Of a stretch of 64,000 nt of DNA, positions 10,550 to 42,993 are shown piece after piece (position 1 is the stretch's first letter; every line of letters begins with the position of its first letter). The stretch lies in contig NC_092628.1 in the NCBI RefSeq assembly GCF_039555335.1, forward strand, positions 97,902,536-97,966,535, written 5' to 3'. Origin of the DNA: Amphiura filiformis (Eukaryota > Echinodermata > Ophiuroidea > Amphilepidida > Amphiuridae). Below the pieces are notes generated by a model that was not told where the DNA came from, did no database searches, and saw nothing but the letters and a program-made list of their open reading frames with translations. The position numbers were made by a program, and so were the translations under genes.

Positions 10550-10674
10550 TCAAACAATTTGCAGAAACTGTCCTTTTAATGTCGAAACGAGAAAAATGAT
10601 GCTCGTAACTAAAGTCACGAAGTGCGTCAATGAGGAATATGTCATCCGAATACCACTCGACTTCTTACTCGGTT
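10550..10674 (-). CDS. EGF gene B, last exon with C-terminal hydrophobic anchor
   Basis: Acceptor CATTCAG, then [10 protein letters not shown], a spacer, [15 protein letters not shown] and KGQFLQIV before TGA (10552-10550). Sequence and frame are conserved with gene A over 33216-33086. Confidence 0.8.
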
Positions 10675-42200: not shown

Positions 42201-42993
42201 ATGTCTATTTCCTGACTTACGTCCAAATTCATTCGCCCGATATTTTTTTCTGGGACACCCTGTATACTCATTATATTCATATACTTTTCGCTCTTTTACG
42301 ATGATCATTTTGAATTTTTTCCGCATCATTTTAACTCATGCAAGTGATGGCTTGTATGAGCGAGCAAGGAAGGTTGTTTGTAGTTGAATTAGTGTCTTTG
42401 TTTAAAAATATTGTCAAATTATATTTATATGTCATTTATTTATTTTTTTTTTCTATATATATTTTTATATGTCATTTATTGTTTAGCTTTTGTATTTTTA
42501 TCTGTCCAATGTATGTAATTCAGCCTTCAGCTGCGAAATGCGTTTTTCTAATAAACCTTGAATGAAAATGAATGAATGGAATAGAGTAAATATGAGGCGT
42601 GATTTTCATATTGTTATAATTCAAGACAATGTAAGATATCTAAATATTTACAAATGTTTTACTTTGTAACTTTATTATGAATGGACCTAAAATTGCCAAA
42701 CTGTCAAATTGTTACTGTTTTAACACCCGTTCTGTGTATGACATGGCCCGTCGGGGTAATATAATAATTATAGGCATCCACAAATTCTACTTACGTTCAT
42801 CTGGTAGAGGTCTTCCAAGCATCGCATTTCCACGGGAGAATCTTATCTGAGGTTCCTCATCAGGCTCATCATACTGAAGAGGGTCATACTCGTGTCTACC
42901 CTCATTGATCGGTGTACTGGTATATCTTGGGTCCGGTTGTTCTTCATACTGTGGTGGTTGTGAATAGTCACTGCGGTAGATGTTACCCGCCAT
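33086..42993 (-). CDS. EGF gene A: type II membrane protein with 6 EGF repeats and a C-terminal hydrophobic anchor
   Basis: I do not recognise this as a named gene. Coding exons: 42993-42795, 38678-38523, 37779-37663, 37200-37090, 36586-36473, 35016-34903, 34637-34524, 33828-33715, 33216-33086. All junctions are phase 1, giving 389 residues. A 66-residue tail has no signal peptide but has QPPQY, a PPxY WW-ligand. A Cys-rich juxtamembrane patch and a span ([19 protein letters not shown]) follow, so the protein should be N-in/C-out. Then come six EGF domains, several calcium-binding type (INEC, IDEC). The last exon has a Ser-Ser-Gly, a short spacer, the hydrophobic [15 protein letters not shown] and a short tail KGQFLQIV. 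The final segment could be a GPI signal or a second span. A 95-codon phase 1-1 exon at 40892-40608 could be included, giving 484 residues. Gene B is a tandem paralogue matching in the first, transmembrane, EGF and last exons. An RTE remnant sits in intron 5. Confidence 0.85.
33484..33557. repeat. (TTA)n microsatellite in the last intron of gene A
   Basis: About 25 TTA units between the last EGF exon and the terminal exon. Confidence 0.95.
33715..33828 (-). CDS. EGF gene A, EGF domain 6
   Basis: 38 codons, phase 1-1. It starts IDECSSYPC (O-glucose consensus), contains [12 protein letters not shown] and ends GWNGTNCEL with an NGT sequon. It ends in a single base that joins the last exon in frame. 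Confidence 0.87.
   Translation of the reverse strand, partial: TLTSVLHTLAEMTGYVWMELMVTHVNVMADGMAQIVN
33971..34210 (+). mobile_element. tRNA-derived SINE (second family) in a gene A intron
   Basis: The head has an A box (TGGCCTAGCGGTTAAGG) and a B box (GGTTCGAATCC). It is followed by GTCCTTGAGCAAGACACTCT, a word also found in the SINEs at 45.4 and 46.6 kb (CTCTTGAGTAAGACACTTT). The 3' end is not certain. Confidence 0.75.
34524..34637 (-). CDS. EGF gene A, EGF domain 5
   Basis: 38 codons, phase 1-1. It starts INECVSNPC and contains [12 protein letters not shown]. It is closest to domain 3, suggesting exon duplication. Confidence 0.87.
34903..35016 (-). CDS. EGF gene A, EGF domain 4
   Basis: 38 codons, phase 1-1. 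It starts IDDCALLPC and contains [13 protein letters not shown] near-perfect palindrome lies 24 bp upstream of its acceptor. Confidence 0.87.
35040..35109. repeat. Perfect palindrome with 32-bp arms
   Basis: Left arm 35040-35071 and right arm 35078-35109 are exact reverse complements around a 6-base loop. It lies 24 bp upstream of the acceptor of gene A EGF domain 4. Confidence 0.93.
35210..36440 (+). pseudogene. RTE-type non-LTR retrotransposon remnant in gene A intron 5
   Basis: The plus strand (antisense to gene A) reads [108 protein letters not shown] and [12 protein letters not shown] in order. These are RT and post-RT signatures of RTE-like LINEs. Several frameshifts and stops break it, so it is inactive. 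It ends about 33 bp downstream of EGF exon 36586-36473. Confidence 0.88.
36473..36586 (-). CDS. EGF gene A, EGF domain 3
   Basis: 38 codons, phase 1-1. It starts INECVSNPC, a C-x-S-x-P-C O-glucosylation consensus, and contains [12 protein letters not shown]. It is very similar to domain 5 (34637-34524). Confidence 0.87.
37090..37200 (-). CDS. EGF gene A, EGF domain 2
   Basis: 37 codons, phase 1-1. It starts INECATLPC and contains [12 protein letters not shown], which fits the C-x-D-x4-[FY]-x-C-x-C consensus for Asp/Asn beta-hydroxylation in calcium-binding EGF domains. Confidence 0.87.
37478..37600. mobile_element. CAGGGTGTCCCA-end fragment
   Basis: TACAGGGTGTCCCATAAAAA followed by a CCGGGTGAAT...GAGATACAGACATCGGAATC run matches one end of the element at 41372-42262. 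No partner end was found, so it is truncated. Confidence 0.65.
37663..37779 (-). CDS. EGF gene A, EGF domain 1
   Basis: 39 codons, phase 1-1, six cysteines, ending GWNGTNCEI with an N-glycosylation sequon (NGT). It has no calcium-binding DxDE start and is orthologous in position to the gene B exon at 18417-18298. Confidence 0.85.
38523..38678 (-). CDS. EGF gene A, transmembrane exon
   Basis: 52 codons, phase 1-1. A Cys-rich stretch ([18 protein letters not shown]) and a basic KHRR precede the hydrophobic [21 protein letters not shown]. The positive charge on the N-terminal side supports N-in orientation. Confidence 0.88.
38696..38874. mobile_element. Foldback element, hairpin with about 85-bp arms
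   Basis: GAGGTTAATAACT and AGTTATTAACCTC bound the arms. Inside, GGGCATTGTGAAAAATCTAA pairs with its complement and GAATATCCC pairs with GGGATATTC. It lies in gene A between the 95-codon and transmembrane exons. Confidence 0.8.
39154..39808. mobile_element. Inverted-repeat element, CCATAGTGGCGTA units
   Basis: Ends CAATTCGTCG...GTATTCCATAGTGGCGTATA and its complement pair over about 36 bp. TCATAGTGGCGTA-like units recur inside at about 39340, 39425 and 39560 in both orientations. Confidence 0.75.
40163..40371. mobile_element. MITE with TTAA duplication
   Basis: Arms of about 65 bp including TTCTTCTGGGGTGAACC and AAACCTGCCTGGTTATC. Flanked by TTAA (40159-40162, 40372-40375), as for piggyBac-type elements. 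Confidence 0.82.
40608..40892 (-). CDS. Candidate optional 95-codon exon of gene A (cytoplasmic, fold unknown)
   Basis: An open 285-nt segment between TTATGCAG and G|GTATGTT, with phase 1 at both ends. It can therefore be inserted between the ATG exon and the membrane exon without changing frame. The product starts [18 protein letters not shown] and continues with amphipathic stretches ([37 protein letters not shown]). The alternating strands around one helix suggest a small ubiquitin-like fold, but I recognise no family. I saw no counterpart in gene B. A TTTAAATC-rich inverted-repeat element abuts its upstream side, so it could instead be an exon of something else or a relic. Confidence 0.5.
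40925..41358. mobile_element. TTTAAATC-rich inverted-repeat element
   Basis: GATTTAAATCG words cluster at both ends (40930-40975 and 41315-41358) in pairing orientation. It starts about 30 bp upstream of the acceptor of the candidate 95-codon exon. Confidence 0.5.
41372..42262. mobile_element. Tc1/mariner-like non-autonomous element, TIR CAGGGTGTCCCA
   Basis: Ends CAGGGTGTCCCAGAAAAA and TTTTTTTCTGGGACACCCTG, flanked by TA (41370-41371, 42263-42264). Sub-terminal AGACATCAGAATC words pair. No transposase reading frame remains. Confidence 0.82.
42795..42993 (-). CDS. EGF gene A, ATG exon (cytoplasmic tail)
   Basis: The acceptor TTGCCAG precedes 11 untranslated bases and the ATG (exon begins at 43004). 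It codes 66 codons plus one base to donor GAAC|GTAAGT. The tail is polar and rich in Pro, Tyr and acidic residues, with [15 protein letters not shown] and [13 protein letters not shown]. It is nearly identical to the gene B exon apart from a few-residue insertion (LQYDEPDE). Confidence 0.88.

Follow-up and report, generated by a model that had tools for sequence, protein, structure and literature searches.

Few membrane proteins combine a span at one terminus with a glycosylphosphatidylinositol (GPI) anchor at the opposite one; the examples named in the relevant section of one prediction study are BST-2 and a prion protein form that spans the membrane (PMC2571997). The C-terminus of BST-2, also called tetherin or CD317, is described as a GPI anchor or, by one report, as a second span (PMC3395152). 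Among the proteins with epidermal growth factor (EGF) domains, neuregulin-1 type III is stated to be without the N-terminal span in about 10% of its molecules (PMC10741733), and the teneurins continue for ~2000 residues beyond their EGF repeats, according to the corresponding extract (PMC6428715). Here, we describe a 64,000-nucleotide stretch of Amphiura filiformis DNA (contig NC_092628.1, positions 97,902,536 to 97,966,535; hereafter the window), in which two tandem paralogous genes, A and B, encode in the same order a tail of about 90 residues that lacks a signal peptide, a single strong membrane span, an array of 6 or 11 EGF repeats and, finally, a hydrophobic last exon. An earlier note on this DNA had proposed that the two products are doubly anchored EGF proteins with a tetherin-like plan. 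The account that we favour, a type II protein with a rod of calcium-binding EGF (cbEGF) domains and a second anchor at the C-terminus that is more likely GPI than a span, has in our estimate a probability of roughly 0.4 when taken as a whole.

The gene models rebuilt from the window place both genes on the minus strand in the same orientation, with gene A at 42993-33086 (9 exons, 389 residues) and gene B at 21042-10550 (14 exons, 571 residues). The protein lengths and outer coordinates of the earlier note agree with these models, as does the phase-1 exon assembly that it had described: every exon junction is in phase 1, the internal exons are all multiples of 3 with symmetric 1-1 phases, and GT starts and AG ends 21 of the 21 introns (8 in A and 13 in B). 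Since all junctions share this phase, the frame of each exon, the last one included, is fixed by its neighbours. In genes A and B alike, an in-frame TAATAA, that is, two stops, stands one codon before the ATG, and therefore the proteins start where they had originally been placed. Neither copy carries a frameshift or a stop. The nonsynonymous divergence (dN) is lower than the synonymous divergence (dS) in all four of the compared exons, significantly so in three of them (the span exon is the exception, with p = 0.25). The dS between the copies ranges from 0.22 to 0.69 depending on the exon, so that the rates are rough, and the selection estimates are based on two sequences, genes A and B of this window. 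We also considered an allelic or haplotype duplication, which was rejected on account of this dS range and the unequal EGF numbers. No convincing third copy of exon 1, the span or the last exon was found in the window, where the other matches had E-values of at least 0.069.

The last exon encodes 43 (A) or 41 (B) residues, in which KSSG, a spacer of 10 residues, a hydrophobic run of 15 and KGQFLQIV precede the stop codon, with a Kyte–Doolittle (KD) hydropathy peak over 15 residues of 2.56 (A) or 2.33 (B). Its conservation between the paralogues, which had been noticed at the outset, is borne out by the comparison. The DNA of the exon is 84.9% identical over 126 bases, 31 of the 41 aligned residues are identical, and the splice acceptor, the frame and the stop position are common to A and B, while the neighbouring intron is mostly unaligned: less than half of the 498-bp last intron of gene A still aligns to B, in pieces of 81, 81, 16 bp and shorter. 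The 3' flank of the exon also aligns poorly. Judging from the substitutions, 9 synonymous at 30.2 sites and 10 nonsynonymous at 92.8 sites (dS 0.38, dN 0.12; Fisher p = 0.019), the last exon is under purifying selection. As a control for chance, all frames that run from an acceptor to a stop over 30-60 residues were read across the window, 529 in total with 281 on the minus and 248 on the plus strand, at thresholds chosen so that both last exons pass. A comparable hydrophobic run near the stop occurred in 27 of these frames, and was accompanied by a small-residue triplet in 6, which correspond to three places, two being the last exons of A and B. By itself, the motif is uncommon and provides modest evidence; the forced frame, together with the conservation and the selection, makes the case convincing. 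The last exon gave no match among solved structures at E-values up to 10.

At the opposite end, exon 1 encodes 66 (A) or 60 (B) residues of cytoplasmic tail and is the best conserved of the four compared exons, with 52 of 60 aligned residues identical, a dN of 0.06 and a dS of 0.22. The tail contains a PPQY motif in both genes, a WW-domain ligand of the PPxY type. The span encoded by exon 2 begins near residue 98 (A) or 90 (B), reaches a KD peak over 15 residues of 3.41 (A) or 3.76 (B), and lies 6-7 residues from the first EGF cysteine. The tail and span alone match no Pfam family, and a comparison with solved structures yielded one match at an E-value of 0.78, which is not meaningful. A signal-peptide first exon was sought as an ATG-started phase-1 exon with a signal-peptide-like core, with self-chosen thresholds for donor score and hydropathy. 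The scan returned no candidate at 52000-37800 (-) on the gene A side and one at 32900-18420 (-) on the gene B side, which corresponds to the gene B span translated from an internal Met. The earlier note had described a tail without a signal peptide, and the scan of both 5' regions and the stops preceding the ATG are in line with it. Because folding of the EGF domains depends on the secretory pathway and they stand downstream of the span, we infer that the EGF array is luminal or extracellular and the orientation type II. Around the span of gene B, 6 Lys or Arg residues precede and 2 follow (3 if the Lys at the span end is counted), a charge distribution consistent with this orientation.

Between the two ends, PF00008 recognises EGF modules six times in A and eleven times in B, and the Pfam-A scan of both proteins placed only EGF-type families above the cut-off. 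The six cysteines are present in 17 of 17 repeats. Of the 17 repeats, 15 match the cbEGF pattern, 12 that of the O-glucose site, CxSx[PA]C, and 4 that of the O-fucose site. These patterns make sense in the secretory pathway only, in favour of the type II account. The closest solved structures to EGF2-6 of gene A are DLL1 (1.5e-60) and Notch1. The EGF_TEN model, whose cut-off is 65 bits, also scored above it with 79.9 bits in one protein and 172.2 in the other, which we read as general EGF similarity. The pairwise identity among the ten cbEGFs of gene B averages 83% (71-92%), as compared to 53% (39-82%) among the four 38-residue cbEGFs of gene A, and gene B contains long duplicated exon-plus-intron blocks, such as one of 474 bp at 92.8%. 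It thus seems that a recent multiplication or homogenisation of EGF exons has taken place in gene B, and has changed the length of the rod along with them. A decayed cbEGF exon remnant, recognised by eye, is located at 13460-13530 (-) in a gene B intron.

The earlier proposal of a tetherin-like plan, with both ends of the chain in the membrane, is supported in part: the type II start, the EGF rod and the conserved hydrophobic last exon agree with double anchoring, but GPI as the second anchor is not established. On this basis, the products are probably held in the membrane at both ends. We infer that the last exon provides the second anchor, and tentatively that this anchor is GPI, for which we would put the chances somewhat below even; attachment of GPI at KSSG appears more likely than a second span. 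Between A and B, KSSG shows 0 nonsynonymous and 3 synonymous changes, whereas the spacer and the hydrophobic core show four nonsynonymous changes each. The first Ser of SSG follows the last EGF cysteine by 7-9 residues. Over 17-21 residues, the hydrophobic core is marginal (scores of -0.1 to 3.2, where the first span has -4.0 to -6.6), and marginal hydrophobicity is usual for GPI signals. The last 20 residues have a mean KD value of 1.82 (A) or 1.63 (B), and the last 40 contain 6 (A) or 7 (B) Ser. In the portion of the PredGPI study that deals with its features, dropping the hydrophobicity of the last 20 residues hurt the prediction most, and the Ser content of the last 40 was also among the two costliest losses (PMC2571997).

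Several observations weigh against this account. GPI cleavage is described in the same portion as typically lying ~20-30 residues from the C-terminus, with hydrophobicity up to the end (PMC2571997). These features are typical rather than absolute, and the last exons display neither: the chain continues for 35 residues beyond the initial Ser of SSG, and the hydrophobic run is followed by the 8-residue, lysine-led KGQFLQIV, instead of extending to the C-terminus. This octapeptide is identical at 8 of 8 positions, with 2 synonymous and 0 nonsynonymous changes, and the probability of zero replacement is 0.0013-0.0155 at neutral rates of 0.30-0.20. Such constancy would be superfluous in a propeptide that is cleaved off and discarded, and the pattern suggests that KGQFLQIV is retained in the mature protein. 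The GPI-anchored proteins of the PredGPI set carry an N-terminal signal peptide, as far as that description goes (PMC2571997), which argues against GPI here, as both products are without one. Finally, 3 Lys or Arg residues precede and 3 follow the span of gene A, and an inside location of the N-terminus is not clearly favoured in this copy.

The Lys right after the hydrophobic run, the fully conserved 8-residue tail and the long distance from SSG to the end would also suit a hairpin, in which the last exon is a second span and KGQFLQIV a stop-transfer tail in the cytosol. The chain would then begin and end in the cytoplasm, with the EGF rod as an extracellular loop. Precedents exist in neuregulin-1 type III, an EGF protein that for the most part crosses the membrane twice and keeps its two termini inside (PMC10741733), and in the C-terminus of tetherin, which was itself argued to act as a second span in a report cited in PMC3395152. 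However, the run is short, with 15 residues, and over 19 residues it scores 1.6 / 1.7 versus -4.3 / -5.9 for the first span on the same scale; moreover, KSSG has been kept, although a span would have no need of it. We therefore regard the hairpin as unlikely. An ordinary type II EGF protein, with the N-terminal span as the sole anchor and the C-terminal stretch buried, cleaved or otherwise non-anchoring, is less likely again. It would be consistent with the modest hydrophobicity of the last exon and has a precedent in the teneurins, which are one-span type II EGF proteins (PMC6428715), but it is at odds with the purifying selection on the last exon and with the hydrophobic 15-mer, which is far from anything in the EGF array (-2.7 / -1.2 versus 8.7 / 8.2).

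The DNA comparison of both gene regions gave 47 hits. Besides exon 1, those 5' of the span exon comprise repeats of the dispersed kind, an intron remnant of 27 bp, and a single block of 63 bp. The latter, at 43950-44010 and 22038-22100 (-), is 79% identical, lies 957 and 996 bp upstream of the start codons, and is followed next by a 30-bp piece (83%); it most likely represents either an untranslated exon or part of the promoter. The last introns of A and B also have a block of 51 bp in common, which, at 33369-33419 and 10854-10904 (-), is open in phase 1-1 in both copies and identical at 39 of 51 positions, with donor sites that appear weak by eye. A tblastx search between the gene regions returned 105 non-exon hits, whose E-values are void owing to linked statistics, and none were counted as evidence. 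That the real transcripts differ, with alternative first or last exons giving secreted or singly anchored forms, or with one copy a pseudogene, is the least probable explanation: any of the symmetric internal exons could be skipped without a frameshift, a Met stands at the start of the gene B span (ATG at 18821), and the 51-bp and 63-bp blocks could be a missed cassette exon and an upstream exon, respectively, but both copies are intact with dN below dS in every compared exon, the identity of the 51-bp block, 76%, is matched by a further part of that intron with 76.5%, the signal-peptide scan covering the upstream block gave no candidate, and an upstream exon spliced to exon 1 would meet the in-frame stops of exon 1.

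Returning to the type II, doubly anchored rod, an uncleaved signal-anchor span would hold the N-terminus, the calcium-stiffened EGF rod would stand outside, and the last exon would anchor the C-terminus. With its short linkers at both ends, such a rod could lie flat on one membrane or bridge two, and it would most likely act either as a membrane-to-membrane spacer or tether, or as a flat rod on one cell. The length would be set by the EGF number, 6 versus 11. An EGF domain measures ~3 nm, and arrays of six and eleven may form rods of very roughly 17 and 30 nm. The tail may control trafficking via its PPxY motif. The plan alone can tether, as work on tetherin shows: an artificial protein with the tetherin configuration and no sequence homology recapitulates tetherin function, as reported in the passages concerned (PMC3715405, PMC3828773). 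A broader scenario, in which an animal lineage evolved, independently of tetherin, a family of calcium-stiffened EGF rods with a type II span and a GPI anchor, tuned in length by exon duplication and bridging the membrane of a cell with that of another cell, a vesicle or a budding virus, is doubtful in our view. If it is true, an unrelated EGF-rod case would mean that the plan arises repeatedly, and paralogues differing in EGF number would offer a direct test of whether the rod length sets the distance between tethered membranes.

Table 1. Exons of the two paralogous genes, in window coordinates
Feature	Position	Strand	Remark
Gene A exon 1: start ATG and 66 tail residues with PPQY and several Tyr	42795..42993	-	preceded by the in-frame TAATAA
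Gene A exon 2: basic juxtamembrane stretch and membrane span	38523..38678	-	
Gene A EGF1 exon	37663..37779	-	not calcium-binding type
Gene A EGF2 exon	37090..37200	-	cbEGF
Gene A EGF3 exon	36473..36586	-	cbEGF, CxSxPC
Gene A EGF4 exon	34903..35016	-	cbEGF
Gene A EGF5 exon	34524..34637	-	cbEGF, CxSxPC
Gene A EGF6 exon	33715..33828	-	cbEGF, CxSxPC
Gene A last exon: KSSG, 10-residue spacer, hydrophobic 15-mer, KGQFLQIV and stop codon	33086..33216	-	
Gene B exon 1: start codon and 60 tail residues, PPQY included	20862..21042	-	
Gene B exon 2: basic juxtamembrane stretch and membrane span	18752..18901	-	
Gene B EGF1 exon	18298..18417	-	not calcium-binding type
Gene B EGF2-EGF11	11662..17457	-	ten 114-bp cbEGF exons
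Gene B cbEGF exons, first five	17457-17344, 16630-16517, 14959-14846, 14648-14535, 14338-14225	-	
Gene B cbEGF exons, last five	13138-13025, 12887-12774, 12232-12119, 12019-11906, 11775-11662	-	
Gene B last exon: KSSG, 10-residue spacer, hydrophobic 15-mer, KGQFLQIV and stop codon	10550..10674	-	

Elsewhere in the window, upstream of both genes, an exon of a homologue of GID4 (glucose-induced degradation protein 4, Vac_ImportDeg) is located at 58379-58708 (-), with matches to Pfam at 1.4e-19 and to GID4 in the PDB at 4e-30. Fragments resembling a non-LTR (long terminal repeat) reverse transcriptase were recognised by eye at 7912-8523 (-) and 35211-36313 (+), the second of which sits in gene A, in the intron that separates its EGF3 and EGF4 exons. 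At 40608-40892 (-), within the first intron of this gene, lies an open exon-like stretch of 94 residues with good splice sites and no Pfam match. Dispersed repeats on the minus strand, 73-80% identical, connect the two ends of the window, with 48008-48242 matching 2876-3095 and 3298-3482, and a further pair in the same range at 62727-63008 and 6027-6299.

With respect to possible relatives, exon 1 and the last exon gave 97 and 58 pattern matches in viral contigs, with 0 confirmed relatives, and exon 1 gave 88 in prokaryote genome contigs, again with 0 confirmed; these viral and prokaryote collections are uninformative on the spread of the family among animals. No described family combining a span, an EGF array and a GPI anchor appeared among the papers listed in searches of an open-licence library aimed at this plan, which is a weak negative. 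The view that no described EGF family has this plan agrees with these listings for the pairing of span and GPI, but neuregulin-1 type III is already an EGF protein with both ends in the membrane.

Compared with the known systems, Notch and the Delta-like proteins share the EGF type with A and B, and provide the best structure matches of EGF2-6 of gene A. Notch ligands such as Delta and Jagged possess a signal peptide and a DSL domain, whereas A and B have neither a DSL nor a Notch-repeat domain in Pfam, are oppositely oriented, and lack the signal peptide. The teneurins resemble A and B in their intracellular N-terminus, single span, extracellular EGF repeats and type II orientation, but A and B stop 41-43 residues after the last EGF exon and have no ~2000-residue super-fold. 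Neuregulin-1 type III is likewise an EGF protein, membrane-held on both sides of its EGF domain, with the N-terminus inside in the main form. It has a single ErbB-type receptor-binding EGF domain and a long cytoplasmic C-terminus, in contrast to the 6-11 Notch/Delta-type EGFs and the 8-residue end of A and B, and is therefore a precedent for both ends in the membrane, not for a span plus GPI. The likeness to tetherin concerns the layout: an N-terminal cytoplasmic tail, a type II span, a rod-like ectodomain and a C-terminal anchor, which is putative here. In A and B, an N-terminal span without a signal peptide is found by sequence, with the N-terminus predicted to be cytoplasmic. Sequence kinship with tetherin was not detected, as the Pfam-A scan returned EGF-type families only, and the ectodomain differs; the resemblance is confined to the layout, with the dimeric coiled-coil rod of tetherin replaced in A and B by a calcium-binding EGF array.

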